Shown: in pieces, positions 31,195-53,994 of the stretch
How positions within the stretch are numbered: the stretch's first letter is position 1
How the letters are laid out: each line of letters starts with the position of its first letter
NCBI RefSeq assembly: GCF_012927455.1
Contig: NZ_JABBPE010000002.1
Span: 248,001 to 312,000 of the forward strand
Reading direction: 5' to 3'
Source of the DNA: Polaromonas sp.
GTDB lineage: Bacteria; Pseudomonadota; Gammaproteobacteria; Burkholderiales; Burkholderiaceae_C
Length of the DNA: 64,000 bases
The notes under the pieces: generated by a model
The model's database searches: none
Told to the model about the DNA's origin: nothing
The model's input: the letters and a program-made list of their open reading frames with translations, nothing else
Translations under genes and position numbers: made by a program

Positions 31195-32786
31195 ATGGAG
31201 TTCGCTTGGTTGTAGGCAGTTTCAGACAAAGGGAAAAAAACTTGCACCCGGGTTCCCACACCAGGTGTCGACTCAATCTCGATGGTGCCGCCATGTTTTT
31301 TCATAATGGAGTAACACAGGGACAGCCCCAAGCCAGTACCCTTGCCCGCCGGCTTGGTCGTGAAGAAAGCTTCAAACACGCGCACCAAGGTGGCCTGGTC
31401 CATGCCATGGCCGTTGTCTTCAACTTTCATGACGATCCGTTCCAAGTCGCAACGTGTCGAAATGGTGATTGCCGCCGCGCGTCCCTGCATGCCGTCCAGC
31501 GCATCCATGGCGTTGATGAGAAGGTTCATGATGAGTTGAGTCAATTGGTCGGCGACACCATAAATAGCCGGTAACTGCGGGTCAAGGTCGAGCTTCAGTG
31601 CCACGCGCTGAAGACGTTTGTCGTAGCGAATCAAGCTGCTTGTGCTGCGCAATTGGCCATTCAAGTCCAGGAACTGCGGTTCAACAGCCTGCGGCGATGC
31701 GAACTCCGAGATCTCCCGCGTAATGGCGGTCAGGCGCTGCGTCTGCGCATAAATCAGGTCAGGCCTGCATTCGTGGCAGGCCTTCAGCTTCTCCATTTTG
31801 CGTTCGGCCATCTCTTGCGCAATGCCCGAAATAGCGGCGATCGGATTGCCAATTTCGTGCGCCACACCGGCCGCAAGAGTGCCGATTGCCGCCATCTTTT
31901 CTTGATGGAAATACTTTTGTCGTTCCACCATGAGCTCCTTTTCGCGCGTATCCAAAGCACGCTCCATCCCATTGACGGCTGATATCAGTTGCCCGACCTC
32001 GTCATGACGCGTGACTGGAATCGGCGCACCTCGATAGCCTTTCACAATGTCCAGCGCTCTGGCTTGCAAAGTCCGCAAATCGTCTGTCAATCGCCGGAAA
32101 AAGAGCCCAATAATTGCGCCCAGCAAAGCCAGGCCCAACATGCCCAGCATGAATGTAGTGATAGCCACCGAATCGCTATGGGTGCGGTAACGTTCCGACA
32201 ATTGCTTGCGCCGGTCTTGCGATTGTTCGGTCATCGCCCCAACCGAATTTTTTATCTTGATCAATTCCACCACCAGACGATTCAGGTTGTTTCTGGACGG
32301 GTCCTGGCGCGCATCGTCCCAGGCAGCATTCATGTTCACCAAACTCAGTTCTAATTTCGGCAAGCGGCTGACAAGCTCTGCGTGGCGACTCAGAATTGAT
32401 TGCTGATGCATTGCGATGCGTTGCAGTCCAGCACCGCGATCTGGCGCGTCAAAATTAGCAAATATCGCCATCACTGTGTGGAATGTCGAAACATCCACTT
32501 GCTTCAACAGGCCTTCGGCTTCGAGTGTTTGTTGAATTTCATCAAAATCACGAAGCAATAATTCTTTTTGGTGATAAATGAATGCATCTACTATGAGCGT
32601 GTAAATCATCAGCGCCGCAAAAACTATCAGGCCTTTGGTGCGAATCGACAAATTGAAACGGGACGGCTTGCGCGAAGCAGGAAGCATCTGGGTTGGTAGA
32701 TCTGGCGTCGGCGTTCCCGAGGCCGATTTGGCCAGCTCTGCAGAATTAGTAACGGGGACGATTTTTATGAATTTAATTGCGGACAT
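31191..32786 (-). CDS. Membrane sensor histidine kinase with HAMP and an unusual CHEC motif after the H-box
   Basis: AAGVAHEIGNPIAAISGIAQEMAERKMEKLKACHECRPDL; HATPase GLGLSLCYSIMKKHGG. Confidence 0.93.
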   Translation of the reverse strand: MSAIKFIKIVPVTNSAELAKSASGTPTPDLPTQMLPASRKPSRFNLSIRTKGLIVFAALMIYTLIVDAFIYHQKELLLRDFDEIQQTLEAEGLLKQVDVSTFHTVMAIFANFDAPDRGAGLQRIAMHQQSILSRHAELVSRLPKLELSLVNMNAAWDDARQDPSRNNLNRLVVELIKIKNSVGAMTEQSQDRRKQLSERYRTHSDSVAITTFMLGMLGLALLGAIIGLFFRRLTDDLRTLQARALDIVKGYRGAPIPVTRHDEVGQLISAVNGMERALDTREKELMVERQKYFHQEKMAAIGTLAAGVAHEIGNPIAAISGIAQEMAERKMEKLKACHECRPDLIYAQTQRLTAITREISEFASPQAVEPQFLDLNGQLRSTSSLIRYDKRLQRVALKLDLDPQLPAIYGVADQLTQLIMNLLINAMDALDGMQGRAAAITISTRCDLERIVMKVEDNGHGMDQATLVRVFEAFFTTKPAGKGTGLGLSLCYSIMKKHGGTIEIESTPGVGTRVQVFFPLSETAYNQANSI

Positions 32787-33390
32787 TGCTACCCCGCTCA
32801 GTTCGATAAATATCCTCCAGCAAGGCTAACATCTCCGGACTGCTCCAGTCTTGCAGACCAGTAACGCGCCGCACCAAAGTACCGTCTGGCGCAATCAGAA
32901 AAGTCTCTGGATAAACCCTTAGCCCAAGCTGCTTGGACATTTTTCCGTTCGGGTCAAAAAAGTTGCTGAAAGTGACGCCGCCTTGCGCAAGGAACTCGGT
33001 TGCCAACAGAGCGTCGCGGTCGGTAGACAAACCTATCACCGAGAAGCGTTTCGGATCGAGCGTCTGACTCAAGCGTTGCAGGCTGGGCATCTCCTTGCGG
33101 CACGGCGGACACCAAGTGGCCCAAACATTGAGCACCAACACCTTCCCCTGGAAAGCCGGTGTATTGGCGTTTTCGCCCAGCACGTAATTCAACATGAACG
33201 ATGGAAATGCCTGCCCTTCCACCAACTGAGGAGCTACGGATTCCGGCCTTTTACACCCAGCAACCGACATCAACAATACAGCCATGATGGACAGGGCTAT
33301 TCGCTGCGATTTCCTTCGCACAGGAGCCTCCAATATAGCGCCAAAGCAGCGACAAAACCTGACCATCTCAATGCGCGCCCAGGATTGCAT
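32773..33390 (-). CDS. TlpA/ResA-like thioredoxin-fold lipoprotein
   Basis: VLNVWATWCPPCRKEMPSL; lipobox SVAGC; start uncertain. Confidence 0.85.
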   Translation of the reverse strand: MQSWARIEMVRFCRCFGAILEAPVRRKSQRIALSIMAVLLMSVAGCKRPESVAPQLVEGQAFPSFMLNYVLGENANTPAFQGKVLVLNVWATWCPPCRKEMPSLQRLSQTLDPKRFSVIGLSTDRDALLATEFLAQGGVTFSNFFDPNGKMSKQLGLRVYPETFLIAPDGTLVRRVTGLQDWSSPEMLALLEDIYRTERGSNVRN

Positions 33391-34414
33391 CGGGGAGCCA
33401 CAAGCTCAATTGATCATATGAATGCAAGCCTGAAAATATCAAATTAACGCCGAAGAAACAAAATACGGTTACGGCAAATCCGATGATTGCCCACCACGCC
33501 GCGCGCATGCCACTCCAGTGATTGACGTAGCGCAAGTAAAAATAAAACGCATAGGTTAACCAGACAACCAGTGCCCACGTTTCCTTGGGGTCCCATGCCC
33601 AAAATCGTCCCCAGACCTCGTAGGCCGAAACGGCGCCCAGGATGGTTGCAAACGTAAACAGCGGAAATCCCACCAAGATTGCCTGATGTATCAACCGGTC
33701 AATCTTCCACAAATCCGGCAACGATCGCATCGCAAATCCTTCAGTAACACCGTGGCGCTCGGCACGATGACGCAGCAAGTACACCCCACCCAATAGCGCG
33801 GCAACAGCAAACGCGCCATAGCCAAGGAAATTGGTCAAGACATGCGCATGGATCCAGTAACTCTTGAATAATGGCACCTGATAGTCAGGAGCCGCCTGGT
33901 CATTGGAGACCAGCCAAATCTCGAACAACACCGCGCTAACAACAATGGGCATGACAAAAGCGCCTGCCGAACGGGTCCTATAAACCTTCTCCATGACGAG
34001 ATAGATCACTACGGTAATAGCGCTGAACAGCGACATAACTTCGTACAAACCAGCAATCGGCGCCTGACCTACCGGATGCACGTAGAAAGCTTCAACCCTG
34101 CGCACCAGCATACCCAGCGTGAGGCAGATTGCACCGACTGTAGCGAAGCCCGATGCCCAGCGCCCGACCCTTTCAGAAGTGAAGCGAAGATGGCTTAAAT
34201 AAAGGATGGTAGAACCAATCAGCAGCAAATTGGCATAACTAACCAACTGATAGGAAACTAATCGTTCAAACGGCATGCCCAAGCGGGAAGTTCTTGTTGC
34301 CAAATACTCCACCAAAATCATGAGACCCAAGGCAACAACAGCCAATCCAATCCAGAACACCACAGCGGGCATGGAACGGGCCTGCCCCCCATCACGTAAG
34401 CGTTCTGTATTCAT
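33368..34414 (-). CDS. Second CcsA/ResC-type System II cytochrome c biogenesis protein
   Basis: WGRFWAWDPKETWALVVWL WWD motif, multi-TM; AGGAGG SD before MNTERL. Confidence 0.88.
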   Translation of the reverse strand: MNTERLRDGGQARSMPAVVFWIGLAVVALGLMILVEYLATRTSRLGMPFERLVSYQLVSYANLLLIGSTILYLSHLRFTSERVGRWASGFATVGAICLTLGMLVRRVEAFYVHPVGQAPIAGLYEVMSLFSAITVVIYLVMEKVYRTRSAGAFVMPIVVSAVLFEIWLVSNDQAAPDYQVPLFKSYWIHAHVLTNFLGYGAFAVAALLGGVYLLRHRAERHGVTEGFAMRSLPDLWKIDRLIHQAILVGFPLFTFATILGAVSAYEVWGRFWAWDPKETWALVVWLTYAFYFYLRYVNHWSGMRAAWWAIIGFAVTVFCFFGVNLIFSGLHSYDQLSLWLPDAILGAH

Positions 34415-34659
34415 GACCTGGTTTCCTCCTAGCCCTTGCAATGGCTGATTCTGCGGCACGGGCTCTTTATCTCGTCCCGACGCGATCCGGGCGACGTTCG
34501 CAGTTGACATCCGATTTCCACGCAGACCGTGCCAGTCGGCATCGACGGCGCGTGAAGAATTAGGTTACTTCACCGCGTTTTGCGAGGCGGTTAATCGCTC
34601 GATGCCAGGCCTGTGAAAGACGTTGGGCGGCACTGTTGACCTAAACAAGTTGGAAATCA

Positions 34660-34735: not shown

Positions 34736-36769
34736 TCAGGGTGACTTTTTCTCGGTAATGGGACGGGGGACCGGGATTTTCTCAATTGCGGGAAGTGACT
34801 TATTGGTGAGCACTGTGGCCACCGACCCTTGTTTTTTCAAGTCCTCTTCCCATTCCCAAATTGCTGCATTGGCCTTGCGCAAATACGGATCGTCTGACTT
34901 GCTCAAATGTACGTAACTGCGCATTGCGCCCAACGCACCTTGCAAATCGCGCAAGCCTTCAAGCGCAACTGCCAGGCCAAAATACGCATTAAGTTGATCC
35001 CGCTTCAAGGCAGTGGCATTTTCAAACGATGTCCTGGCCATGTCGTAACGCTGCAAACCCAACAAGGCGAATCCCATGTTGACATGCGCTTCCGGCATCT
35101 TCGGGGCCAATTCGAGCACCCGATGCAATTGACTTGCCGCGGCGTCGTACTGCTTTAAATTGAGTGAGGCAACACCCTGAGAGAAAAGATGATCAATTTC
35201 GGACTTGCTTTTCAGTGTGGCCGGACCGATTGCATCTTTGCGCGGATCCGCGCCCTGCGCCGTAACGACGCCGCCACTGTCGGCTGGCCAATAAGCTAGC
35301 AGGGTGCCAAGCGTTACAGTCAATGCGGCCGTGAGCGCGATGGCCGACCACCGCACATCGCGCCGGTCCCGGCGTAGCGGTGTTGGCCGCGCCTTGGCTC
35401 GCAGGCTGCGCAAAATATTCAAGACAAACAGCGCAGCCCCGCTGATAGCCAGAAAGCCGCCCAGCCCGGCCAGGCTCATGGCTGCAAAATACGCCGGGTA
35501 CTGAACGATGACATCAACATGCAAGGTTTTGCGCGGCACGCCAAGCCAACCCGACCAGGCAAGAGCCAGTGCCAGAATTACCAAGCCTGAGCCGTACAAC
35601 ACTGGCTGCCAGCGAACCAGACGCCCTTGATAGCCAACCAGCCCGAACGCCGGCAACAACTGGTAGCCGAGCGCCATATAGGCTAGGGTTACCGCGCCGA
35701 CGGTGCCGTGGTAATGAGCGGGCACCATGGTCGTGTCGTTACGAATCATCGCGCCCAAAACGCATCCTAGCAAGAACAGCAGAATCGACATCAACAACGC
35801 TGGCGCTTGCGGCGCCGACCAAACGGCGCGCCCCGCCCGCTTGAGCTGCAGCAACAGGCGCAGCGCCAGCAGCGCGGCTGCTGGCCAGACGCCCAGAGCC
35901 ATTAGCAGCGTGAAGGCACGCCGAAAATCAGGGCTGTCAATGGGATAGGCGAGGTAAATGAAAGGCACGACCAGAACCGGCGCAGCGGCCAGCACCAGCA
36001 GGCCAGCCAGCCACCGGCGCGGCGCAATAGGTTGCTCCAGTACCTGCTCGCCCAGAACGGTCCAGACACTCATCAGCAAGATCACATGGAGGAACTGCAG
36101 GACGTGGCCCGGACCCCACGCCAAAATCTCAAATGCCGCTTGGCTGGGCGGCCACTGCGCCTTGGCGATGGAGGTGATCAATGCGCCCAGCGCTGCCGCT
36201 GCGACAAGCAGTGACAGCAATGCGCCCAGACGCCAGGCCGGTGCTTCTTTTAATCGGCGCACCATGCCGCGCAAAGAAGCTACGCCGCACAGCGCAACAG
36301 CGGCAAGAAACAGCAACAGACCCGTGAGAAACATCGGATGATTGAGAACCGGCACGTAGTTGGCCAGCACCGGCGCGGCGGCGCCAAAAAATAGCGGTGT
36401 CACCATCGAGGCCAGTCCCGCCGCTGCCAGCGCCAGAACAGCCCAGCGTAAAGGGCTCGCCGCAACGCCAGCTGCCAGCGACCAAAAGCCGGAAGCGCAC
36501 GCTAGAAACCAGACCACCACCGCGAGGCTGACATGAAGCACCAGGGCTCGGCCAAACAATTCGCCAGAAGTGGCGACTGTTCCGAACAAGGGTGTGCGCG
36601 CGGCAATCAGCAGCACGGCACACAGTGTCGAGAGCGCGAGTGCGCTCAACGCCAGCAGCAGCCAGCCCCCCGCCACGCCGCGCACATCGGGATGCACCCT
36701 TAGCGCGGACGGCCTATCTGTATCAGTGCCGCGAAAACCTGGCCGGTCGTATTGGGTTGCTGCAGGCAT
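34736..36769 (-). CDS. Multi-TM heme-copper-oxidase-subunit-I-like protein fused to C-terminal TPR domain
   Basis: WGPGHVLQFLHVILL and DTTMVPAHYHGTVGAV resemble HCO helix VI/X; TPR at C-term (YDAAASQLHRVLELAPKMPEAHVNMGFALL); trimmed start. Confidence 0.65.
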   Translation of the reverse strand: MPAATQYDRPGFRGTDTDRPSALRVHPDVRGVAGGWLLLALSALALSTLCAVLLIAARTPLFGTVATSGELFGRALVLHVSLAVVVWFLACASGFWSLAAGVAASPLRWAVLALAAAGLASMVTPLFFGAAAPVLANYVPVLNHPMFLTGLLLFLAAVALCGVASLRGMVRRLKEAPAWRLGALLSLLVAAAALGALITSIAKAQWPPSQAAFEILAWGPGHVLQFLHVILLMSVWTVLGEQVLEQPIAPRRWLAGLLVLAAAPVLVVPFIYLAYPIDSPDFRRAFTLLMALGVWPAAALLALRLLLQLKRAGRAVWSAPQAPALLMSILLFLLGCVLGAMIRNDTTMVPAHYHGTVGAVTLAYMALGYQLLPAFGLVGYQGRLVRWQPVLYGSGLVILALALAWSGWLGVPRKTLHVDVIVQYPAYFAAMSLAGLGGFLAISGAALFVLNILRSLRAKARPTPLRRDRRDVRWSAIALTAALTVTLGTLLAYWPADSGGVVTAQGADPRKDAIGPATLKSKSEIDHLFSQGVASLNLKQYDAAASQLHRVLELAPKMPEAHVNMGFALLGLQRYDMARTSFENATALKRDQLNAYFGLAVALEGLRDLQGALGAMRSYVHLSKSDDPYLRKANAAIWEWEEDLKKQGSVATVLTNKSLPAIEKIPVPRPITEKKSP

Positions 36770-36771
36770 TT

Positions 36772-37584
36772 TCAAAACGTCCCTTGATGGGGTCGATCCG
36801 ACAGAAATGGCACACCGAAAAACGTCAAAAAAGCAATGACAAACACTGCAAACGCCATCACCGACGACAGCCGGGGCGATGGCTTGTACGTCATGCGCAG
36901 ATGCAATGCGAGTGCCAGCAACAGCCAAGTGATGAAGGCCCAGGTTTCAAGTGGATCCCAAGCCCAATAGCGCCCCCATGCGTCCTGCGCCCAAATAGCG
37001 CCGGCCACCAGCATCAAGCCGTTGAATATCAGCGCCAGCGCCATGAAGCGATAGGCCAGGTCATCAAGCCGCTTGTCTTCGGGCAGACGCAGAAACCAGG
37101 ACGAGCCCGAAGCCGTGCGTCGCATCTGGATCACACCTGCCAGTCCAACCGCCACCAGCATCGAGCCCAGAAAAACTTTACCCAAGCCGACATGAATATA
37201 CAACCAGGGCGTGCGAAACGTGCGCGGAAAATGCACTTCGCCAGGGCTCGACAGCATCAGCCAACCCATCATCACAAACAGTATGGGCATGACCACTGCC
37301 GCCGATGGCCGGATCGACGGAATACGCCAATAGGTGATGACGAACACCAGTACCAAACTCCAGATATTGCTCGACAGTATCTCGAACATGGAGACGAACG
37401 GCCCCTGCCCCAGCCGCTCCCAGCGGATCAGCAGTGCTGCGGTATGCAGCAACCAGCCGAACGCAATCAGCGCCAGCACGACTCGCTCCGGACACCTTTT
37501 CAGCACCACCGCGCCTATCGCCAGCGAGCCGCCCAGCACATAACAGATGATGGCTGCCCACAAGGTTCTCAGTTCAAGTTCCAT
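36772..37584 (-). CDS. CcsA-type System II cytochrome c biogenesis protein
   Basis: WGRYWAWDPLETWAFITWL WWD motif, multi-TM. Confidence 0.88.
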   Translation of the reverse strand: MELELRTLWAAIICYVLGGSLAIGAVVLKRCPERVVLALIAFGWLLHTAALLIRWERLGQGPFVSMFEILSSNIWSLVLVFVITYWRIPSIRPSAAVVMPILFVMMGWLMLSSPGEVHFPRTFRTPWLYIHVGLGKVFLGSMLVAVGLAGVIQMRRTASGSSWFLRLPEDKRLDDLAYRFMALALIFNGLMLVAGAIWAQDAWGRYWAWDPLETWAFITWLLLALALHLRMTYKPSPRLSSVMAFAVFVIAFLTFFGVPFLSDRPHQGTF

Positions 37585-37708: not shown

Positions 37709-38677
37709 TTAATTTCTTTCTGTATTCCAGGGTGTTGACTCAAATTTGCGCCAAAAGTGCCAAGACAGACTCAGCACGCCAACCGCGCAGGCTGCCAGCA
37801 TCCATGAAATGGTCCAGTCGTAAAAGAAACGGTATCCCATCCAGGTGCGCAGTTCCCGATACTCCAGCGTTCCATCGGCCAATGCGATGCGCTCACCGGG
37901 CTGCATTTCCCAGCGCGTTCCCTGATAACGCACGACAATTTTTCGCTGGTCCGGCAACTGAAAGCGCGAGGCGCGGTCCGACGGAATCAGGTTCTCTTCG
38001 ACGTTGAGCATTACCCAGATATCTTCTTTGCTGCCGGCCGGTCGCCAACTCTGCGCCTGTCCGGTGGCATTGGCCGGGTAGCTCGGCAAGTGGACCGCCG
38101 CCAGCAACGCCTCGCCGTTCACCGGACGCCACAAAAACAAAGGAGCAAAGCCCTTGTTGGAAGTGGGATAGATGCGGTATCCGAGCAGCACCAGCGGTTT
38201 ATTGATCTCTATCTCGCCAAAACGTTCCTCGCCATTGCTATCGTGCCAGCGCAGCCGGTTGATCAGCCGATCCAATATCGGGCCGGCCATGTAGGCGATC
38301 TCAAAGCCGTCGTTAACAAAATCAACTTCATCAATCCGCCCCATATGCAAAGGCCCTGCGTCCCGCGACTTCAAACCGGTAAAAGCCGCACCATCGGTGA
38401 CCTCGGCGGTCCCTTTCAAGTACATCAATTGGCCAGCAGCCGCCAGCAGCACCAGCGCGATCAGCGCCAGATGAAAAACCAACAGTGGCATTTGCCTGCG
38501 AAACACACCATTGGTAACGACCGCAGCGATCAGATTAATGGCCAGTAACAGCAGCGGCGCAGCCAGCCAGGGCGCGGCAGCCTGATCGAGCTTATAAACA
38601 GCGACAGAGGCGATACCAAGCAGCAGCAGTCCAACCGGTGTGAATTTGAGTGATGCCAGCGCCAGAATCAGTCGCAT
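37709..38677 (-). CDS. ResB-like cytochrome c biogenesis protein
   Basis: Multi-TM with periplasmic domain; next to CcsA; EYRELRTWMGYRFFYDWTISWMLAACAVGVLSLSWHFWRK. Confidence 0.75.
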   Translation of the reverse strand: MRLILALASLKFTPVGLLLLGIASVAVYKLDQAAAPWLAAPLLLLAINLIAAVVTNGVFRRQMPLLVFHLALIALVLLAAAGQLMYLKGTAEVTDGAAFTGLKSRDAGPLHMGRIDEVDFVNDGFEIAYMAGPILDRLINRLRWHDSNGEERFGEIEINKPLVLLGYRIYPTSNKGFAPLFLWRPVNGEALLAAVHLPSYPANATGQAQSWRPAGSKEDIWVMLNVEENLIPSDRASRFQLPDQRKIVVRYQGTRWEMQPGERIALADGTLEYRELRTWMGYRFFYDWTISWMLAACAVGVLSLSWHFWRKFESTPWNTERN

Positions 38678-41274
38678 CAGGGCGGCGAGTCGCAGGTGTT
38701 TCTCATGCCGTCTCTACCACCGTTGCAATTGTTCTCCGTCCAGTTGCTACCGCTTGGGAAGGAAGTGACCTTAATGAAGGCCTTACGGTAATACGGCCCG
38801 TTGGTGTAGCCGACGTTCTGGGCGGGAGTCACCGAGGTGCCCGCCGCAAGCCCGGCTTCAGGTCCAACGTCGTTGAGGTTGGCCAGCAAACCGCGGTTCT
38901 TCCAGCCATGGGGGACCGCCACATGGCAATAATTGCACTTGATGCCGCCACCGATTTTGTCCGAATGTATCCCATGGCCGTCGCCCTTGTCGGTGCTGAA
39001 TCCGGTTCCACCGCCGTCCCTTGTCGCGTAATTAGTGGCATTGTGGCACTTGAAGCACAGAGCATCCGCTTGGCCTGTGCCGGTGGCGGCGTCATATTTT
39101 CCTTTAAGCAAAAAGTTGTTTTCCGAACCGTGCGGCCCCCAGGGTTTGCCGTTCTCGCTGGTGTTGGTGTTGCCCGCAGGCATAACAGTCCCCTGGCCCG
39201 TGGCCGAACCATGGCAGTCGGAGCAATACATGGTCTGAGTGCCGAGCGCCCCTGAATTGTTCCACGGCGGAAGCCACCTGCCTAAGCGGTTAACACCACG
39301 GCCGGTGGGCGCCATAACCGGGTGCCACGACCGGTGGTTGTTGTTGTTGGTCGTCGTAGCCACTGCAGAGGCGCCCGCGCCGCCATCGAAGCCGTTGCTG
39401 ACCGTGCCGACTGGAACAGCATGCGTTAAAGGCGCCTGGAACTCCTTGGCCTGATTGGTGTAACGCGTGAAGTTGTTATGACCGTTTGAATTTGGTGGCG
39501 TCAACCCCAAACCGCCGAGCAGCGGGCGCGTTGCACCGTTCGGATAGATGTTGTCATCCGCGTATGCGTAGTTGGAATGGCACTTCAGGCAGATCTGGTA
39601 TTCGCGCGTGACGTACTTTTCGCCCACCAGGTTGCTGGCACTTGCGCCAGGGTCCCCACGTTTGGCGTTAAAGCTCAGCGGCATTGACTGGAACGAATTT
39701 CCCCCGTAGACCGGCTCGACCCCAAACGATCCGCGCAGCACGCCGGAGATGACGTTGGTGTGCACATAGCCAGCGGCATCTTCATGGCGGTGAGTACCCG
39801 CCTTTTCGTTCGTATTGCCAGCGGAAAGAGGGCCCGGCAGCCCGTTTTGCGTCTTGATCACACGATGCGGATTGTGGCAATCGGAGCATTCAGCATGGCG
39901 GTTATTGGGATTATCCAGGCCGAGGCCGCTACGTGACTCCAGCAAGTCCTTGCCGCATTTGCCGGTAAGCTTGCTGCAATTGGTGTCGGGTCCATCGTTG
40001 AAAACACCACCGACGTTGTGCGTTTCGGTTCCTGCGGCCTGCTCGCTTGACTTGATAGGCATGTGTCGGCCGAGCGCGAAATCCGACTTGATATCCGGAA
40101 TTGCGTTCGAGGATTGCGTGATGTAGCTCACCGCTGAATCGGCGCTGGTGGTGTGGCATTGGTAGCAGGTTTCTTCGAGCGCGGCGGCGCCACCGATCTT
40201 TGGTTTAGCGGCACTGTCGGTGCCTTCGCGCAGCAAACGGCGTGCGCCCTGCACAGTGTGCGTGTCGTGGCAATTCAGACAGCCGACCTGCCAGACTGGC
40301 GGATTGGCATTGGCAGGAATTCCAATTGACGAAGGAAATTCACGCTGCTTTGCCGCCTCAGGCGTATAGGTCTGCGTTGCAACCAGACTGTTGGCGTGCG
40401 CCGAAAAGGCCCAGGCACTGCCGCCCTTGTCATGGCAAGCCAGGCAGATGATGTCATTGGTCGCACTGAAGGCGCCGCCGACAGGCTGGGTTACCTGAAA
40501 GCGATTCATGCGCAAAAATTTGGCGTTGCCGTTGGTGGTGGTCTTGTCGCGTAAATGCGGATCATGGCAAGTCGAGCACTGCATCTGGTTGTTTTCCAGC
40601 GGCAGTTGAGGTTTCGCGGCCCCGGTGACGCGATTCCCGACGAGTGAACCATCGGGACTACGCAACTCGCCGTCCAGATTGGCAAGTGCAGCGTTATACG
40701 TGAATGAAATCGGATGATCGGCACTCAGATCAGTCCCCAGATTGCGGGTAAAGCCAGTCGCCGCGTTGCCCGGCACCTTGACGGGTGTGGGTGTGTTCAT
40801 TGCAATCGTGGCGTTCTTCGCGCCATTGAGCGCATTGACTTTGTCGATGGCCATAGTGCCGTCATGGCAGGACAGGCAGAGCTTGGAACTGCCACCGGGC
40901 TGCGTAGCCAGTTCCGCCGCGTCGGCTTCCATTGAGGTGGAGGAGTAAAGCGTATAGGTCTGGCCGGACAATTTTCGGTTCCAGAGCGGCGCTCCTAGCG
41001 CAGTCGAGCCACCGCCAAAACTGATGGTTTCGGCTTCATGCGGTGTGTGGCAGAACACACAAACCTGCGTTTCCGAAGTCGCCTTTACGCTACGCGCCGG
41101 CACTGTGCCCCCAGATGGCGTAGCCGATCCGTCCGGCACGGCAGAGAAATTGTGTTTGGTTCCCCGCACGTCCGGAATTTTGTTAGTAGGAGCGATTTGG
41201 GCGTGCGTAAAGTTACCCACCAGCAGAAGAGCCAACATAAGCAAGGCCGCTGCAGGATATTTGGGTAACTGCAT
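38677..41274 (-). CDS. Exported 11-heme multiheme cytochrome c
   Basis: 11 CXXCH motifs (CVFCH, CLSCH, CSTCH, CLACH, CLNCH, CYQCH, CSDCH, CLKCH, CSDCH, CFKCH, CNYCH); signal peptide. Confidence 0.92.
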   Translation of the reverse strand: MQLPKYPAAALLMLALLLVGNFTHAQIAPTNKIPDVRGTKHNFSAVPDGSATPSGGTVPARSVKATSETQVCVFCHTPHEAETISFGGGSTALGAPLWNRKLSGQTYTLYSSTSMEADAAELATQPGGSSKLCLSCHDGTMAIDKVNALNGAKNATIAMNTPTPVKVPGNAATGFTRNLGTDLSADHPISFTYNAALANLDGELRSPDGSLVGNRVTGAAKPQLPLENNQMQCSTCHDPHLRDKTTTNGNAKFLRMNRFQVTQPVGGAFSATNDIICLACHDKGGSAWAFSAHANSLVATQTYTPEAAKQREFPSSIGIPANANPPVWQVGCLNCHDTHTVQGARRLLREGTDSAAKPKIGGAAALEETCYQCHTTSADSAVSYITQSSNAIPDIKSDFALGRHMPIKSSEQAAGTETHNVGGVFNDGPDTNCSKLTGKCGKDLLESRSGLGLDNPNNRHAECSDCHNPHRVIKTQNGLPGPLSAGNTNEKAGTHRHEDAAGYVHTNVISGVLRGSFGVEPVYGGNSFQSMPLSFNAKRGDPGASASNLVGEKYVTREYQICLKCHSNYAYADDNIYPNGATRPLLGGLGLTPPNSNGHNNFTRYTNQAKEFQAPLTHAVPVGTVSNGFDGGAGASAVATTTNNNNHRSWHPVMAPTGRGVNRLGRWLPPWNNSGALGTQTMYCSDCHGSATGQGTVMPAGNTNTSENGKPWGPHGSENNFLLKGKYDAATGTGQADALCFKCHNATNYATRDGGGTGFSTDKGDGHGIHSDKIGGGIKCNYCHVAVPHGWKNRGLLANLNDVGPEAGLAAGTSVTPAQNVGYTNGPYYRKAFIKVTSFPSGSNWTENNCNGGRDGMRNTCDSPP

Positions 41275-42350
41275 CAGGTACCTCCTAAAAGCTGAAAAAT
41301 AGCAATCCGTCCATTGAACATATCGGCCACATAAATTCGTCCACGCGGGTCACTCCAGACGCCGGCCGGCAAGTAGAACTGGCCCACTTCTTTTCCGGTT
41401 CCACCGAGAGGCATCAAAAAGCTTCCTTCGCTGTTGAACACCAGTAAATTGTCGTAAAAAGATTCCACCACGTAAATGTTGCCTGAAGCATCCACCGTCA
41501 CGCCCTTGGGCCGGGTGAAATTGCCAATAAACAGCCCGCGCTGCCCAAGCGTTCCTGTCACCTGACCCCGTGTGTCGTAGATTTGAACGCGAGCATTCAT
41601 GCCGTCGGTCACGTACAGCTTGTCGGCGGCAAAAGCCAGATGGGTCGGAAAGTTCAGTTCACCTTCGCCCTCCCCGCGATGGCCTATGGTTTCCAGCAAA
41701 ATACCGTTGTCATCAAAGACCTTGACGTCATGCGCGTGGGTATCAGACACGTAGATCCGGCCGCGTTGCGCATCGCGCGCCAAACCAGTGGGCCGCGTCA
41801 ATACACCCTGGCCAAAACTTCCGATCGGCTTGCCTTCCCGGTCCAGGCGAAACACACCACCCAATTCGGCATCGGCGACCAGAATCTGCCCGCCCGCACC
41901 CATGGCGATCCCTATGGGCGTGACGAATCGTTTGTTTGGCATAGCCCGGTTCCACACCAGCAACTTGCCAGCCGCCTGGTCAAACACAAACACCGCATGG
42001 TTGCTGACGTCGGTGACGTAGATGCGGCCGTCGGCATCAACCGTCCCGCTTTGTGGCCGCTTTAATGCGGTACGGTCCTCGTCACCATCGAACAGCCCGA
42101 CCAGCCAGGCCAGCACTTTCATGCCCTTGCTGCGTGTATCACCTGTTTCGGGGACGAAATTCTGTTCACCGACCAATTCGCCAACATAACCGTAGCGAGG
42201 CGTTTCCGGAGCTGCCGGCCAGGTTGCCGTCGTACCGCCAGCCCGCTGCTCCGGGTCGAAGCGCATGACGTATTTGGTCTCGGCACAGCCGGACAGCGCC
42301 AGCCACGACGCGAGCAATAGCAAAAATGGACCGAAAATCAGCCTATTCAC
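41274..42350 (-). CDS. NHL-repeat beta-propeller lipoprotein 1
   Basis: Likely GTG start; LLASWLALSGC lipobox; GRIYVTDVSNHAVFVFD, PTGLARDAQRGRIYVSDTHAHDVKVFD. Confidence 0.85.
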   Translation of the reverse strand: MNRLIFGPFLLLLASWLALSGCAETKYVMRFDPEQRAGGTTATWPAAPETPRYGYVGELVGEQNFVPETGDTRSKGMKVLAWLVGLFDGDEDRTALKRPQSGTVDADGRIYVTDVSNHAVFVFDQAAGKLLVWNRAMPNKRFVTPIGIAMGAGGQILVADAELGGVFRLDREGKPIGSFGQGVLTRPTGLARDAQRGRIYVSDTHAHDVKVFDDNGILLETIGHRGEGEGELNFPTHLAFAADKLYVTDGMNARVQIYDTRGQVTGTLGQRGLFIGNFTRPKGVTVDASGNIYVVESFYDNLLVFNSEGSFLMPLGGTGKEVGQFYLPAGVWSDPRGRIYVADMFNGRIAIFQLLGGT

Positions 42351-43347
42351 TTGAGGAAGCCTTCTTTTGGGGAGGTGCGATGCGAAATATTTGGATGCGC
42401 GCATGCACACTGTCCGCAACATGAAGCATGTTTTGTTCCACCCACAAGCCAGTGATGCGGTTGAAACTGGGCGGTACCGCACCACCGCCGACAAAGCTTG
42501 TCAGCAATTCCCCATTTTCAAAGACTTTGATCGTATTGTCGAAACTGTCACTTACAAAAACGCGGTTAAAGCGGTCAACTGCAATAACGCCAGGCATTTT
42601 CAATAAACCGGAACCAAGCGTATATCGATCCCGCCCGTCTCGACCGATGACCACAATTTTGCGGCCAACACGGTCGACAAGGTACAGGCCATCAGGTCCG
42701 CTCGCCAGCGCTTCGATACTTCGGCTCTCATCAGAGCGAAGGACCGACAAGACGCGGCCCAGGCTATTAAAAACGACGACATGATTGCGCAAACTATCGG
42801 CGACCAGCACCTCCCCATTGGACGCGTCCACCAGAACCCCAACGGGACGAGCGATCTCAAGCGCATTGTCAAAGCTGCGCAGCAGTCTGCCATCTACAGA
42901 GTAGTGCAACACCTTTTGCGACCCAATGTCGGCCACATAAAGTGACAGGTCCGACGCGACCGCGATGTTGCCCATTGCCCCGCCAGCATAGTCAGCAAAC
43001 GAGGTCATGCTCTGCTGGGCGGTGTCATAGCGATAGATCTTTCGGCGACCGGCATCGGCCACAAAGACGTAATTGCCACGCGCTGCCACCGCAGCAAGAG
43101 ATATCCACTGAAGATTTCCGGAAAAGTCGGGCTTGCGTGCAAAGGGGCTCAGCGGATCGGGAAGCGCACTGACGCGCGCACCTGTCAACGTTGACCAATG
43201 CGTCAACAACGATTGCTTACCCGCTTCGCCACTGGAACGCGGCGCTGATGGCGATGCGGCGCAGCCCAGCGTCAACGCACCGGCCCCAAACAGCATACCG
43301 AGGCACCATGCGCGGCGAGGGTGAAGAAGCTCGGATTTTTTCATCAT
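42343..43347 (-). CDS. NHL-repeat beta-propeller lipoprotein 2
   Basis: ALTLGCAASP lipobox; PVGVLVDASNGEVLVADSLRNHVVVFN; 8 bp overlap with the next gene. Confidence 0.85.
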   Translation of the reverse strand: MMKKSELLHPRRAWCLGMLFGAGALTLGCAASPSAPRSSGEAGKQSLLTHWSTLTGARVSALPDPLSPFARKPDFSGNLQWISLAAVAARGNYVFVADAGRRKIYRYDTAQQSMTSFADYAGGAMGNIAVASDLSLYVADIGSQKVLHYSVDGRLLRSFDNALEIARPVGVLVDASNGEVLVADSLRNHVVVFNSLGRVLSVLRSDESRSIEALASGPDGLYLVDRVGRKIVVIGRDGRDRYTLGSGLLKMPGVIAVDRFNRVFVSDSFDNTIKVFENGELLTSFVGGGAVPPSFNRITGLWVEQNMLHVADSVHARIQIFRIAPPQKKASSSE

Positions 43348-43380: not shown

Positions 43381-43815
43381 CTACCACTTCCCCGGGCCCG
43401 TTGTGGAGTCGCCGCCATAGATGCCACTGGGCAGGCCAGGTTTTCCTGAATGGCACAAGTCGCAATTCGCCGCCCCCCATGCGACCTGGTCGTTATGGCA
43501 CATGCCGCAAAACTTGCCATTGATGATGTCGGACATCAACACATCGTTGCTCCCAGCGCGCATCTTGAAGCCAAGTTCGGAATGACAGACTTTGCAGCGA
43601 AAGCGGATGCGATGAAACCAATGCGGAAAAACCACCGGTCGAACACCCTCTTTTTCTGCGCGCTTGTTTAGCACCACATCTCCATATTCGGCATGCACCG
43701 GAATAGAGACGGCAGCCAGCCAGAGCGCAAGCGCACTGCCCAGCGCGCACTTGACCAAGTGTGTGCACCTTGTCGCGCCCCTGCTGTATTTGCGCCAGAG
43801 ACAGACGGCTTTCAT
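43381..43815 (-). CDS. Triheme c7-type cytochrome, family A'
   Basis: FPHWFHRIRFRCKVCHSELGF, CGMCH, CDLCHSGKPG. Confidence 0.92.
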   Translation of the reverse strand: MKAVCLWRKYSRGATRCTHLVKCALGSALALWLAAVSIPVHAEYGDVVLNKRAEKEGVRPVVFPHWFHRIRFRCKVCHSELGFKMRAGSNDVLMSDIINGKFCGMCHNDQVAWGAANCDLCHSGKPGLPSGIYGGDSTTGPGKW

Positions 43816-44345
43816 TTCCGCTCCACGCTATGGCAACGCTTGCACTCGGTCAGCGGAAAAGAAACCGCTCCGTGACACACGCCGCAATATTCGCCTTGCA
43901 GTATCTGAAACATGTTCATCTGCTTGGTGCCACCGGCCTTGGACTTGAACAGCTGCTCATGGCAATTGCTACAGTCCAGCCATTCGGTATGCTGCTTGTG
44001 GGGGAAGCGCACCATAGGCATTTCGCCGGTGCGCGGCATGATCACATCCTGATCCAACACCTTGATCTTGGTATCCGGCAAGATATTGGTTCGCGGAGCG
44101 ATCAGGCCCTGCTCAAGCGCCTGAACCCAACGGACGCGATTGCCCACCGCATCGGGAGGCAGTTTTGCCAGCGCCTCTGCAGGTTCCTGCAGTAGCTTGA
44201 TAGCAGGATTGGCGGGATCATGCACGCCGTCTTTGGCCAAGGGAAGGCGGTCAGCAGCCAAGGCGGCGCCTGCAAACAAACACGCGGTCACGACCCAAAG
44301 CCGGATTGATATGCTGCGAAGGATGTGCCCTGAAAGCATCGACAT
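43812..44345 (-). CDS. Triheme c7-type cytochrome, family B'
   Basis: FPHKQHTEWLDCSNCHEQLF, CGVCHGAVSFPL, CKRCHS; trimmed start. Confidence 0.92.
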   Translation of the reverse strand: MSMLSGHILRSISIRLWVVTACLFAGAALAADRLPLAKDGVHDPANPAIKLLQEPAEALAKLPPDAVGNRVRWVQALEQGLIAPRTNILPDTKIKVLDQDVIMPRTGEMPMVRFPHKQHTEWLDCSNCHEQLFKSKAGGTKQMNMFQILQGEYCGVCHGAVSFPLTECKRCHSVERK

Positions 44346-44361
44346 GACCGCCTCTATTTTT

Positions 44362-45306
44362 CTATCCTGGAATATAGACACCAGCACTGCGGATGGCGCG
44401 CACCAACTCTTTGGTCGAGTCCTCCAACAGCTTGACCCCCGACTCGTAATCTTTCTTGGCCGCCATCCCTTCGGCATTTCCGCGTAAAACCGCCGCCTGT
44501 TCAAGGGACTTCTGCACCATCCCATCGAGTCCCGCATTACTGGCACGCTTCTCATCAAGCAAGACCTTGACCAGCATCTTGTGCGTATCGTTGCGATCAA
44601 CCTCGTAGCGATACTCTTCTTCCTTGCTCGCAAAATTAAGCGAACGCACAAGGGTATCGCCTTCGCGCAAACCTTCTATTGCCTTTCTGGCCGTTACATA
44701 AACTTTATCAAGCAAGACGCGGCCCTGGTCGATTTTTCCGGCGGCGGCAAGCGCGGCGGCTTCGCGTGCCTGCGCTTCCATCGCGCTTGTGTTTTCCGCG
44801 CCCTTTGAGCCCTGATTCTTTTCCGTATTTATGCGCTTCAATGCTGCCAGCAAGGCCTTTACACTCTCCATACGCCCGTCAAAGTCGCTTTTATCTTTCG
44901 CCCCGGTGACCTGTCCCGGAGAAGCCAGATGAACACCCTCAAACATCAGTTTTGCTGCCTGATCCAGCATGCGGGACGCTTCAACAGCGTTGCCCGCCTT
45001 GTACGCATCTTCTGCCTGCTTACGCAATTCACGCGCTTTAACGCGCAAAGCAAGAGCCTCAGGGACCGCACTACTTTCAATCTGCTTCGCAGCCGACGAT
45101 TTTTCAATCAATGTTGAAACCGATGCCAAACGGCGCTCTAACTGCTCCTTGTCCTCCGGCGTGCGGGCAGGACGTGCTGCGGGTACGGCAGGCGGATTGA
45201 CAACCTGCGCCGGTTCGGCGGCGCCCGCTGATGCCATGGGTAGACTGGCACTCCACAGCATCAGCATCATGCTTTTTTTGAGATTTTTTTTCATAATAGA
45301 CTTCAC
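44362..45306 (-). CDS. Helical exported protein H' (paralog of 45303..46271)
   Basis: Signal peptide; long helical repeats; shared C-term LVRAIRSAGVYIPG. Confidence 0.65.
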   Translation of the reverse strand: MKSIMKKNLKKSMMLMLWSASLPMASAGAAEPAQVVNPPAVPAARPARTPEDKEQLERRLASVSTLIEKSSAAKQIESSAVPEALALRVKARELRKQAEDAYKAGNAVEASRMLDQAAKLMFEGVHLASPGQVTGAKDKSDFDGRMESVKALLAALKRINTEKNQGSKGAENTSAMEAQAREAAALAAAGKIDQGRVLLDKVYVTARKAIEGLREGDTLVRSLNFASKEEEYRYEVDRNDTHKMLVKVLLDEKRASNAGLDGMVQKSLEQAAVLRGNAEGMAAKKDYESGVKLLEDSTKELVRAIRSAGVYIPG

Positions 45307-46271
45307 GGAGGGACCTCGGATGAATGCGGTACGACCACTCCAGCAATGCGCAATGAGCGCTGCAAATGGCTGGTCGCGCCTTCTATCGTTTTCACGGCAG
45401 CGATGTAGTCTTGACCGCTTGCCTGCTTCTGCGCAATAACGCGAAGGTCGCGGCTCTGCTGCGCGTAGTGCTCGGCAACTACAGCCGTTTCACGCACCGT
45501 ATTGAGCTGTGCGATGGCGATCGGAATCAATTCTTCGTAACTGCGGTTGCGAGCCAATTCGTGTCTAAACTCCTCAGCCGGCAAATCGAACTTCAGCCCG
45601 TACACAATTGTTTCTGCCGCAAGTATCTTATTCAATGTCGCGACGACGCTCTGGTAGGCGCTATTCAATACCACGTTAGCTTCGTCCTGATTGCCACCCA
45701 GAATCAGCGCGTCGGCCTTGTCCACCATGCCGTCAATTCGGTCGACATCGGCAACGACCGTGGAGGCCTGCAGTTTTTTGGGGGACATGCGGCTTGAAAG
45801 GCCCTTTTGCTGCATTTGAAACGTACGTATCGCTTCGCGCAATTGCGTATTGCGGCTGCGTTTTTGCGCAAGCTGTTGCACAGGATCAGGTACCAGAGAT
45901 GATGCTGCAGCGATTTGCCGCAACGACTCATCGAGTAGCAGCATCGCAGCTTCCCCGCGACTGGCATTGAACTCGGTTTCCGCCTTTGCATACCGAGCCT
46001 GTGCCTCAGCCAGTTTCCTTTTCGCTTGAGCGTTGTTGCTCTGGGGTATGCGCAGGACTGCCGGTGATAGCGACAGCAATTGCTTGACCAATCGCAGTTT
46101 GCGCTCCAGCGTCGCACGGAAAGAATTGGCGCGGACCTCGACGCCGCCTGTCGCATCGGGTTTGGCAAGTACAACAGAAACCGGTTCGGCAGCCGCGGCC
46201 GCATCCGCAGCCGCACCAGCCAGCATCAGACCGAACCATGCAAAAGACGCGGTTATCCGAAAATTTCTCAT
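45303..46271 (-). CDS. Helical exported protein H
   Basis: Signal peptide; C-term HLQRSLRIAGVVVPH matches H'; trimmed start. Confidence 0.65.
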   Translation of the reverse strand: MRNFRITASFAWFGLMLAGAAADAAAAAEPVSVVLAKPDATGGVEVRANSFRATLERKLRLVKQLLSLSPAVLRIPQSNNAQAKRKLAEAQARYAKAETEFNASRGEAAMLLLDESLRQIAAASSLVPDPVQQLAQKRSRNTQLREAIRTFQMQQKGLSSRMSPKKLQASTVVADVDRIDGMVDKADALILGGNQDEANVVLNSAYQSVVATLNKILAAETIVYGLKFDLPAEEFRHELARNRSYEELIPIAIAQLNTVRETAVVAEHYAQQSRDLRVIAQKQASGQDYIAAVKTIEGATSHLQRSLRIAGVVVPHSSEVPP

Positions 46272-47863
46272 GGCTTGGCTGCCGCCTTCACAACTGGCGT
46301 TTTGGTCTTCGAATGGCAACGACGGCAGTCCGATACTGGAAAAGCAACTTTGCCGTGGCAAACGCCACATTTCTGACCGAGCAGAATGGCCGCCATGCTG
46401 ATCTGGTTAGCGCCCTTTTGCGGGATAAAAATTGCAGGATGACAGTTCGAGCAATCCAGCCACTGCGTGTGCTCTTTGTGGGGATAGACCACATCTGGCA
46501 TCGAGCCTTTGACTTCACGCACGATGTTCATGTCCATCACCATCGGCTTGGCATTCGGGTCGATGCGGTCAAAGCGCGGATTGATCTTGTTTTCATTGAG
46601 AGACTTGACCCAGTCCACCCGATTCCCATCATTGCTCTTGGTCAGCGCCCCGAACGCGGCCAGCGGCGGCTGCAGCGACAGCGTGCCGTCGTTCGCGGGG
46701 TCGTGAATGCCATCTTCAGCCGGTGGCAGGTTTCGCTTTGCTGCCGGCTGCATGAGTCGATTAAAGGTATTCACACCGCCTGCGGCTGCAACCGTTGGTG
46801 GACCTGCAGGGGCTGCGGCCGCGGGTGGTGCTTCAGCTGGGGCCGCAACCGGCGCTGCAGCTGCGATTTTGGTCGAAGCATCTGCCGGTGGCGCGGCGGC
46901 CTCGACGCTCTTCGCGCCAGAACCCGATTGACTGACGATGTATTTGACCGCAGACTGCATTTCGGCATCGGTCAGCTTGGCGTTTCCGCCTTTTGCTGGC
47001 ATCGCGCCCTTGCCCTTGGTTGCATTGGCGACCATAGCAGCCTGACCGGCTTTGATGCGTGGCGCCCATGCAGCAGCGTCGCCAAGTTTGGGCGCACCCG
47101 CCGCGCCAGTTGCATGACAAGCTCCGCAGGTGCTGTCGTAAACAGCCTTGCCGTTAGCATCTCCACCGGCCGCAGCCACCACCGCTGGCGCCGCAGGGGC
47201 TGACGGAGCAGCCGCCTCGGCATTCTTCGTACCAGAACCCGATTGACTGACGATGTATTTGACCGCAGACTGCATTTCGGCATCGGTCAGCTTGGCGTTT
47301 CCGCCTTTTGCTGGCATCGCGCCCTTGCCCTTGGTTGCATTGGCGACCATAGCAGCCTGACCGGCTTTGATGCGCGGCGCCCATGCGGCAGCGTCGCCGA
47401 GTTTGGGCGCACCCGCCGCGCCGGTCGCATGACAAGCACCGCAGGTACTGTCGTAGACAGTCTTGCCGTTGGCATCGCCACCGACCGCAGCTACAACCGC
47501 GGGCGCACCAGCTGCTGCTGGGGCGGCCGCCTCGGCACTCTTCGCGCCCGAACCCGATTGACTGACGATGTAATTTACCGCAGCCTGCACCTCGGCATTG
47601 GACAAGCTGGCGTTTCCGCCTTTTGCCGGCATCACGCCCTTGCCTTTGATGGCGCTGGCAACCAGAGCTTTTGAACCGGCCTTGATACGCGGCGCCCACG
47701 CAGCAGCATCACCCAGCTTGGGCGCGCCCGTAGCGCCCGTGCCATGACAGGCGACACAGGTGCGGTCGTAAATGGCTTTTCCGTCTGGCGGGCTCGCTGC
47801 ATTGACCTGCACACAGAGCAGCGACAACAAAACTGCCCCAAGCCGCACAATTAATTTATTCAT
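46268..47863 (-). CDS. Hexaheme cytochrome: three tandem class I cytochrome c domains plus triheme family B domain
   Basis: CVACH, CGACH, CGACH then CSNCH, CGVCH, CRRCH; trimmed start. Confidence 0.92.
   Translation of the reverse strand: MNKLIVRLGAVLLSLLCVQVNAASPPDGKAIYDRTCVACHGTGATGAPKLGDAAAWAPRIKAGSKALVASAIKGKGVMPAKGGNASLSNAEVQAAVNYIVSQSGSGAKSAEAAAPAAAGAPAVVAAVGGDANGKTVYDSTCGACHATGAAGAPKLGDAAAWAPRIKAGQAAMVANATKGKGAMPAKGGNAKLTDAEMQSAVKYIVSQSGSGTKNAEAAAPSAPAAPAVVAAAGGDANGKAVYDSTCGACHATGAAGAPKLGDAAAWAPRIKAGQAAMVANATKGKGAMPAKGGNAKLTDAEMQSAVKYIVSQSGSGAKSVEAAAPPADASTKIAAAAPVAAPAEAPPAAAAPAGPPTVAAAGGVNTFNRLMQPAAKRNLPPAEDGIHDPANDGTLSLQPPLAAFGALTKSNDGNRVDWVKSLNENKINPRFDRIDPNAKPMVMDMNIVREVKGSMPDVVYPHKEHTQWLDCSNCHPAIFIPQKGANQISMAAILLGQKCGVCHGKVAFPVSDCRRCHSKTKTPVVKAAAKP
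46921..47860. repeat. Tandem in-gene repeat, 315 bp period, 3 copies
   Basis: AACCCGATTG landmark at 46921, 47236, 47551; adjacent copies near-identical. Confidence 0.9.
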
Positions 47864-47871
47864 GATGCGTC

Positions 47872-48321
47872 CTATTTCTTCTGCTGGGTTTGCGGCTTCG
47901 CAGGCGCAGCTGCGGCAGCCGGCGCCACCAGCGAATTGATGGTGCTTTGGTGCACCTGGGTCGGCGTGCGGGGTTTGCCGGAGTGGCACAGGTCGCAATT
48001 TTCTACCGACCACGCTATGCTGCCGTTGTGACAAGCGCCACAATACTGGCCATCAATAATCTTGACCATGTCAATTTCATTGCCGCCCGCTTTGAACTTG
48101 AAGCCCAGGTCGGCGTGACATACTTTGCAGCGAAATCGGATACGGTGAAACCAATGAGGAAATACGGCAGGTCGCATGCCAGCAGCATCGGAATAGTTGT
48201 TGATGACAATGTCACCATACTCGGCGTTAGCCGTCTGCATGGTGAACAGGCCGCCCACCAAGATCATAAGTATTAGCAGCCCCCTTTTGATGGCTGAGCC
48301 GTATATCTTCAACGTTATCAT
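47872..48321 (-). CDS. Triheme c7-type cytochrome, family A
   Basis: FPHWFHRIRFRCKVCHADLGF, CGACH, CDLCHSGKP; start chosen at MITLKIYGS. Confidence 0.9.
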   Translation of the reverse strand: MITLKIYGSAIKRGLLILMILVGGLFTMQTANAEYGDIVINNYSDAAGMRPAVFPHWFHRIRFRCKVCHADLGFKFKAGGNEIDMVKIIDGQYCGACHNGSIAWSVENCDLCHSGKPRTPTQVHQSTINSLVAPAAAAAPAKPQTQQKK

Positions 48322-48365
48322 TCCAATAATCCTCTCATAGATACCAAAAGCAAAAATCAAAAGAC

Positions 48366-50471: not shown

Positions 50472-51521
50472 TTACTTTGACTTTGCCTTTGCCTTTGCCA
50501 GCGGCAGAAAACCCGACTGATCAACCTCCGCCGGGGTTTTTTTCTTCAGATCTGCCACGAAGGTGTTCCATGCCGCCTCGCTCTGATCTCTTTGCGCCAA
50601 TTCCTGCGCACGCACCTTGACCTCGTCAAACGGGTGTGCCTGTGCTGGTTTGCGATCAACCATTCGAAACACGGCGATTCCCTCCAGCAAGCGCAACGTC
50701 TCCGTGGTCTCGCCGGCCTTTAGTTTACTAAGCACCTCCTGAGTACCGTCGGGCAGCATGCCTTCGTGCAGGTAACCCATGTCGCCGCCCTGCTTGGCAG
50801 AGGGGTCCGCCGAATGCTTGCGCGCCAGCTCTGCAAAATCGGCACCGCCGCGCAATAGCTTGACTAGACTTTTCGCTTCTTCATCGGTCTTGACCCATGT
50901 CTCTTTTGGCGACGATGGATCGACCTTCAACAATATTGCTGAAACACGAAGCTTCTCAGGCTCGGTGAATTTTTCGGGATGCTTGAGAAAATACGTTTTC
51001 GCATCCTTCACGTCAGCCTTGACATTGGCGCGCGTTGCGGCCTCAAGCTGACCCAGAATGTTGTCTTCTTCCAGACGCGCTGTGAGGCCCGGCAGCACTT
51101 GCGCACGGTTCTTTTTCCACTGCTCGCTGTTGGCATAACGCTGCTCATAAGTCTGCATAGTCTTCTGAATTTCGGCAGCATCCGGGCGCAGGCCGCGCCG
51201 TTTGGCTTCGCGCAGCAGCAGCACGCGCGCAACCAGCTTGTCGCCTACTTCACGTTGCAGCACTGCGATTTCGTTCTCAGGCGGTTTGCCGTGATAGAAC
51301 TTGCCGCGCGAGGCGGTACCGAAAGCTTCGTCGTATTCTTTGCGGGTAATGACCGTGTCGCCTACCTTGGCGAACACACTGTTCGGCCCGGCTGTGCTGC
51401 CGGCTTTGGCCGGAGTTGCAGAAGCTGCTGGAGCTGCTGGAGCTGCAACAATATTGCTGGTGCCCAGCATAGCGAACGACAGCATAGCTGCGTTGCATAG
51501 ATATTTTTTCGCTATTCTCAT
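50472..51521 (-). CDS. SurA/PpiC-type parvulin peptidyl-prolyl isomerase
   Basis: FAELARKHSADPSAKQGGDMGYLHEGMLPDGTQEVLSKLKAGETTE; signal peptide; trimmed start. Confidence 0.92.
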   Translation of the reverse strand: MRIAKKYLCNAAMLSFAMLGTSNIVAAPAAPAASATPAKAGSTAGPNSVFAKVGDTVITRKEYDEAFGTASRGKFYHGKPPENEIAVLQREVGDKLVARVLLLREAKRRGLRPDAAEIQKTMQTYEQRYANSEQWKKNRAQVLPGLTARLEEDNILGQLEAATRANVKADVKDAKTYFLKHPEKFTEPEKLRVSAILLKVDPSSPKETWVKTDEEAKSLVKLLRGGADFAELARKHSADPSAKQGGDMGYLHEGMLPDGTQEVLSKLKAGETTETLRLLEGIAVFRMVDRKPAQAHPFDEVKVRAQELAQRDQSEAAWNTFVADLKKKTPAEVDQSGFLPLAKAKAKSK

Positions 51522-51616
51522 ATTCAAGAAACCTTTCGTTCTCGGGCAAAACCTGCCCCAAACAAGAGGGAGACAAGATGCTTGTCTCCCTCTTAGGTGC
51601 CTTAGCAATCCACTAT

Positions 51617-53924: not shown

Positions 53925-53994
53925 CCTGACAACACTCTCTTGGATTGTGCGAGATCCCATGAGCTGGTCATTTCAGTGTGAGACCTTTCCCGTT

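Follow-up and report, generated by a model that had tools for sequence, protein, structure and literature searches.

The open reading frame at 34736–36769 on the minus strand of the 64,000-nucleotide Polaromonas stretch analysed here (the window) encodes a heme-copper oxidase (HCO) subunit I-like domain fused to a C-terminal TPR domain. Judged by alignment, this protein retains all heme-ligand positions of the superfamily but a single CuB ligand out of three, and it has no catalytic fourth residue of a known kind. We tentatively propose, at a probability of a little under two in five, that the protein serves a dedicated ResB-CcsA-TPR cytochrome-maturation unit as a non-catalytic b-heme accessory, an HCO subunit I paralog that would act by analogy with CcmF/CcmI. 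The data suggest that an old oxidase has been reused as a non-catalytic heme protein helping to make or wire multiheme cytochromes.

Fold, heme-ligand positions and CuB site of the fusion protein

The reading frame singled out in the original prediction is real and is laid out as follows.

34736..36769 (−): COX1-like–TPR fusion ORF, 677 aa, with full-length orthologs in L025, L061, L062 and L063
35399..36691 (−): HCO subunit I-like domain, 12 TM helices, residues 27–457 (Pfam COX1, AlphaFold2 and PDB matches)
35294..35362 (−): 13th TM helix, residues 470–492, predicted to lead the C-terminus to the periplasm (AlphaFold2 helix and positive-inside count)
34802..35230 (−): predicted periplasmic TPR domain, residues 514–656 (Pfam, AlphaFold2 and standalone homologs after CcsA)

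On the strength of its sequence and predicted structure, we consider the window protein a genuine HCO subunit I homolog. Pfam COX1 matches residues 36–438 at 2.8e-18, exceeding the curated cut-off, and a PDB search with a profile of 59 family members returned ba3 oxidase as the best match (4g71, E 4.4e-10). With 55 related sequences in its input, AlphaFold2 modelled the protein confidently (mean pLDDT 84), with 12 long helices plus the additional helix 470–492. Foldseek matched this model to HCO subunit I chains in the PDB, Thermus ba3 first (4g72, E 1.2e-8), followed by aa3, bo3 and cbb3 chains. The 12-TM subunit I fold of the HCO superfamily is thus recovered by Pfam, profile, model and Foldseek comparison, and chance resemblance is ruled out by the COX1 score, the ba3 profile match, the fold and the ligand conservation in 72/72 members described below.

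The C-terminal TPR region, already anticipated in the original prediction, is indeed fused to the COX1 domain: TPR families match from residue ~520 onward in Pfam, and the helical repeat domain begins at residue 514 of the model. Inner loops hold 26 basic residues (K/R) and outer loops 6, which places the N-terminus inside and, as a prediction, the TPR domain in the periplasm. The intact reading frame and full-length orthologs, 66% and 41–45% identical and with gene order kept, rule out a pseudogene of a broken oxidase. Among the five fused proteins the TPR domain is better conserved than the COX1 domain (mean identity 62% vs 47.5%), a point in favour of the maturation role.

Ligand conservation was counted on an alignment of 72 family members with nine eNOR-like enzymes. 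In Thermus ba3, as is established, H72 and H386 are the low-spin heme ligands, H384 is the high-spin heme ligand, and H233, H282 and H283 are the CuB ligands.

36533..36535 (−): H79, helix II; aligns with ba3 H72 (low-spin heme); invariant in 72/72
36104..36106 (−): H222, helix VI; aligns with ba3 H233 (one of three CuB ligands); invariant in 72/72
35933..36019 (−): helix VII region, residues 251–279, expected CuB HH site; contains no His
35708..35716 (−): H352-Y353-H354, helix X; align with ba3 H384 (high-spin) and H386 (low-spin); invariant in 72/72

The three segments originally assigned to helices II, VI and X correspond to these helices of HCO subunit I in ba3 register. H79, H222, H352 and H354 are His in all 72 members, and the family thereby retains both the bis-His pair of the low-spin heme (helix II H79 and helix X H354) and the proximal His of the high-spin heme (helix X H352). 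Equally constant (72/72 each) are R58, W87, Y138, W218, Q225 and an RK pair that aligns, in the profile alignment, with the propionate-holding Arg pair of ba3. Such conservation of His and other residues is more than a scaffold would need, and we therefore regard it as very unlikely that the domain is a heme-free membrane scaffold, a mere anchor for the TPR, although standalone TPR proteins already do without a COX1 domain. Y353 and K414 are family-specific constants and M290 is nearly so (71/72); M290 (helix VIII), Y272 (in the lost HH site) and K414 (replacing the second propionate Arg) may be signature residues of the copper-less site.

The predicted loss of the helix VII pair extends throughout the family, with HH in 0/72 members vs 9/9 neighbouring eNOR-like enzymes; 6/6 other COX1 proteins of the same genome carry HH and HxH. 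In the profile alignment with the PDB, ba3 H282/H283 fall on non-His residues. The register of the site is 267–268 or 271–272, one helix turn apart between two alignments, and all of these positions are non-His. A scan of the whole 677-aa sequence found no HH pair, and no His lies between residues 228 and 352. The stretch originally cited for the missing pair (residues 273–296) does lack HH, but it begins at the end of helix VII, the true site being 267–272. Similarly, the description "without CuB ligands" is right for the helix VII pair but too strong overall, as H222 remains, the sole one kept of the CuB/FeB set of three His (helix VI plus helix VII HH). A shifted HH at the start of helix VIII, found in 14 eNOR-operon relatives, was rejected as an in-register pair: it sits ~10 residues beyond the HH site (window F282-R283), is variable, and is absent from the window protein. 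The retained His thus coincide with HCO ligands, no HH stands in register, and the prediction of an HCO-like protein stripped of its helix VII pair holds, with the heme itself still a prediction.

At the fourth position after the helix VI His (H+4), A/B-type oxidases carry a catalytic Tyr and cNOR a Glu. The corresponding residue in eNOR is Gln, which is why the neighbouring enzymes are named eNOR here (PMC8756737). The window protein has F226, and the family has F in 66/72 members, Y in 3, L in 2 and S in 1; the catalytic Tyr/Glu/Gln is neither present in the window protein nor characteristic of the family. With HH lost across the whole family, O2 reduction is unlikely, as originally predicted. 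It is highly improbable that the protein is a still-catalytic HCO with a metal site rewired through other or subunit-supplied ligands. The kept H222, the conserved Y272 and M290 near the site, and the helix VIII HH of the 14 relatives would fit such an enzyme, but two of three CuB ligands are gone together with the H+4 Tyr/Glu/Gln, the alternative HH is absent from the window protein and most members, and the Uet cluster contains no subunit II gene. By fold and heme-ligand positions, the fusion protein belongs to the HCO superfamily while failing, on its sequence, the definition of a catalytic HCO.

The Uet cluster and the CcsA–COX1–TPR arrangement

Read along the minus strand, the genes between 53971 and 34736 run in the order NHL, tetraheme cytochrome, PPIase, putative porin, triheme c7 cytochromes, two helical proteins, two NHL proteins, undecaheme cytochrome, ResB, CcsA and COX1-TPR. 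The features of this region, including two genes beyond the fusion, are:

51617..52489 (−): tetraheme paired-CXXCH cytochrome (UetA-like)
50472..51608 (−): peptidyl-prolyl isomerase (UetB-like)
48366..50444 (−): UetC-like putative outer-membrane beta-barrel, assigned from homology and position, with no hit in Pfam
43381..48369 (−): UetD-G-like genes: triheme c7 cytochromes, one of them carrying fused cbb3-III-like domains, plus two helical periplasmic proteins
41274..43347 (−): two NHL-repeat proteins (UetH/I-like)
38677..41274 (−): undecaheme cytochrome (UetJ-like), 11 CXXCH in orthologs
37709..38677 (−): ResB-like protein (Pfam ResB 1e-10)
36772..37584 (−): CcsA/ResC-type cytochrome c assembly protein with WWD-type motif (Pfam Cytochrom_C_asm 1.5e-25)
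33368..34510 (−): second CcsA-type protein (Pfam Cytochrom_C_asm 3.8e-41)
32773..33390 (−): TlpA/ResA-like thioredoxin (CPPC), from sequence

The published Uet set comprises UetA (tetraheme), UetB (PPIase), UetC (porin), UetDEG (triheme), UetHI (NHL) and UetJ (undecaheme) (PMC10734462), the genes being named uetABCDEFGHIJ (PMC12575090). This tetraheme, PPIase, porin, triheme, NHL and undecaheme set is complete in the window, the porin by homology and position only, and the cluster matches, at the sequence level, the Uet (undecaheme electron transfer) pathway type followed by ResB-CcsA. A System II unit, in which ResB adjoins CcsA with a WWD-type motif, is present in the window, L025, L061 and L062 (ResB of L062 detected by tblastn). 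A Ccm (System I) operon comes next: in the window it is encoded on the plus strand, and in L025, L061 and L062 it immediately follows the cluster.

As a whole, this Uet-type region for electron transfer across the outer membrane (29776–53971, minus strand) extends into CcsA2, TlpA, a histidine kinase, a sigma-54 regulator, a Sel1 protein, a monoheme cytochrome and Reg_prop propellers; some of these downstream genes are found again in L113, L114, L121, L125 and L130. Divergent from the cluster, at 53947–56288 on the plus strand, lie two adjacent cytochromes with several cbb3-subunit-III-like cytochrome c domains each. The same genome holds a second UetJ-like undecaheme gene (L129, G000:C14:140531-143047; 62% identical), in whose 20-kb neighbourhood other recognised Uet genes are absent.

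In 9/9 Uet loci with a COX1-like domain, the domain lies between CcsA and TPR. The two parts are fused in the window, L025, L061, L062 and L063 and separate in L113, L114, L115 and L121; a TlpA gene stands between them in L121, and the L115 locus may be damaged. In ten COX1-less Uet clusters (L116-L120, L122, L123, L125, L126, L130) a standalone TPR protein, homologous to the window TPR domain, directly follows CcsA, and two UetJ clusters (L127, L128) have neither a COX1-like protein nor a TPR. Placed after UetJ-ResB-CcsA in these ten clusters, the standalone protein is membrane-anchored and apparently a dedicated NrfG/CcmI-like partner; it is missing from the Uet gene names of published descriptions (PMC10734462, PMC12575090), though the primary Tenderiales paper may differ.

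The TPR accompanies ResB-CcsA whether a COX1 domain is present or not, which is most simply read as a dedicated lyase unit with an apocytochrome-recruiting TPR. The gene context is tied more tightly to cytochrome-c heme-attachment genes (CcsA before, TPR after) than to the electron conduit, and the fixed CcsA-TPR position favours maturation. The standalone TPR homologs also match PF23914 (TPR_CcmH_CycH), but at E 0.001–0.003, below the cut-off, and the match is weak because TPR repeats resemble each other. A further point for maturation is the combination of HCO homology with a ligand pattern that sets the 72 homologs apart from the 9 eNOR-like enzymes and the 6 HCOs of the genome itself. Against it, most sampled Uet clusters have no COX1-like part, which is thus not essential for maturation there.

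By analogy with CcmF/CcmI, we propose that an HCO subunit I paralog lost its oxidase or NO-reductase chemistry and became a non-catalytic membrane b-heme protein. H79 and H354 would bind a bis-His b-heme, and H352 a second heme, perhaps with H222 as distal ligand in CuB's former role. The TPRs of NrfG and CcmI bind apocytochrome (PMC3884852, PMC12285233), and the fused TPR may likewise recruit multiheme Uet apocytochromes to the CcsA lyase. In CcmF, a membrane b-heme is reducible by quinones in vitro (PMC3884852) and has been proposed as the reductant of substrate heme (PMC10746174); the b-hemes of the fusion protein could similarly pass on quinol electrons and keep incoming heme reduced. A stable b-heme is absent from CcsBA (PMC10746174), a gap that a copper-less oxidase with a bis-His heme, fused to a recruiting TPR, might fill.

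The main rival, less probable but a serious candidate, is an inner-membrane electron module of the Uet pathway, in which a b-heme pair on the periplasmic side would exchange electrons with quinol/quinone while the TPR docks periplasmic triheme or UetJ cytochromes; it comes close to the quinol/cytochrome module of the original prediction. The kept b-heme ligand positions agree with this, and the Uet genes of the window show no other obvious inner-membrane electron protein. UetJ is present in 9/9 genomes with a Uet-type COX1 protein (in L113 on another contig), with 0/9 showing Uet-type COX1 without UetJ; this pattern counts for maturation and for the module, and with UetJ in all nine genomes the occurrence test did not separate maturation from conduit. 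However, UetJ occurs in 14/399 genomes of the order and the fused protein in 5 of those 14, so Uet does not generally need it, and a TPR comes after CcsA in clusters without a COX1 domain as well. Moreover, HCO hemes lie at one membrane depth, as is established for HCO structures, and the fusion protein would therefore be no transmembrane wire.

Family branches and significance

The search for relatives covered ~430 genomes from the order and 369 from the class; searching genome contigs with the window protein alone gave a single COX1-like relative, from Balneolaceae (L001). The tree of the HH-less COX1 family, a clade separate from eNOR-type enzymes, has two branches of 63 and 9 sequences, the window protein being among the nine. 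The smaller branch sits in Uet clusters; its internal order is unsure because of long branches, and one of its members (L115) was omitted from the tree. The larger branch includes the divergent Balneolaceae member, and 54/63 of its sequences have eNOR-operon genes inside the fetched flanks. Neighbours in this sister clade are cytochrome b proteins with ferredoxin or FNR domains, a small conserved protein, SCO and eNOR-like subunits I and II, often with a CtaA/COX15-like gene nearby; at a greater distance, the longer loci also hold nirS, nirN, nirJ and a Crp-type regulator. Examples are L029 5000-18728, L027, L030, L065, L132 and L001 9899-17065. A further COX1 protein of the window's genome (L140, G000:C15:114718-115956) has an unusual HH context (GQVGGHHLIGGP), unlike the usual types.

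The position of the sister clade, whose genes mostly sit next to those of bc-type cytochrome b proteins in eNOR/nir operons, counts against the maturation role in that it suggests respiratory electron transfer instead. The cytochrome b-ferredoxin/FNR genes at its side support the Uet electron module and favour an electron-transfer ancestry. The adjoining eNOR/nirS genes would also suit a gas-binding sensor or scavenger, whose CuB-less heme binds NO, O2 or CO beside the invariant H222/Q225 and modulates cytochrome maturation, possibly via the nearby histidine kinase and sigma-54 regulator. Such a role is unlikely: the proximal His of the high-spin heme is retained, and the kinase and regulator lie downstream in several loci, but the same pair follows COX1-less Uet clusters (L125, L130) and the protein has no signalling domain.

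A literature search found neither a family of HCO subunit I proteins devoid of the helix VII pair nor a COX1-TPR fusion, though either may be mentioned in Tenderiales or NOR-diversity papers. The broadest statement, which we consider less likely than not, is that a widespread new clade of HCO paralogs lost the CuB site and was reused as membrane b-heme proteins, one branch in Uet bacteria contributing a TPR chaperone and b-heme electron donor to a System II cytochrome-c lyase. Automatic annotation labels such proteins oxidase subunits, and they would then be mistaken for terminal oxidases or NO reductases in counts. As b-heme redox proteins, they would exemplify an oxidase fold reused without copper chemistry, and would also explain either how reduced heme is supplied to multiheme conduit cytochromes in System II or by what route Uet electrons get to the inner membrane. 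Should the maturation reading be true, this would be the first HCO-fold protein in cytochrome maturation.

Comparison with known systems

Thermus thermophilus ba3 subunit I, a B-type HCO, shares H72, H384, H386, CuB H233 and the Arg pair in register. In contrast to ba3, the window protein has CuB H282/H283 and Tyr237 replaced, RR changed to RK, and a TM helix and TPR added, and its cluster has no CuA subunit gene. The eNOR-type NO reductase subunit I (PMC8756737), encoded near the sister clade, has the helix II/VI/X His, GHxxQ and Arg in common with the family, whereas the HH (9/9) and the H+4 Gln retained by the eNOR-like neighbours are both lacking from it. The Uet pathway of Ca. Tenderia electrophaga, Gallionella and Leptothrix shares the tetraheme, PPIase, porin, triheme, NHL and undecaheme genes with the window; ResB-CcsA-TPR and the COX1-like protein are unmentioned in its published descriptions (PMC10734462, PMC12575090), from which the primary 2022 paper may differ. 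The functional analogy is with CcmF-CcmI (System I) and NrfEFG, where a membrane b-heme protein and a TPR apocytochrome chaperone are grouped around a WWD heme lyase. These systems are not homologous to the window unit: CcmF is itself a WWD protein, whereas the window unit divides the lyase (CcsA), the putative b-heme protein (HCO fold) and the TPR into distinct parts.
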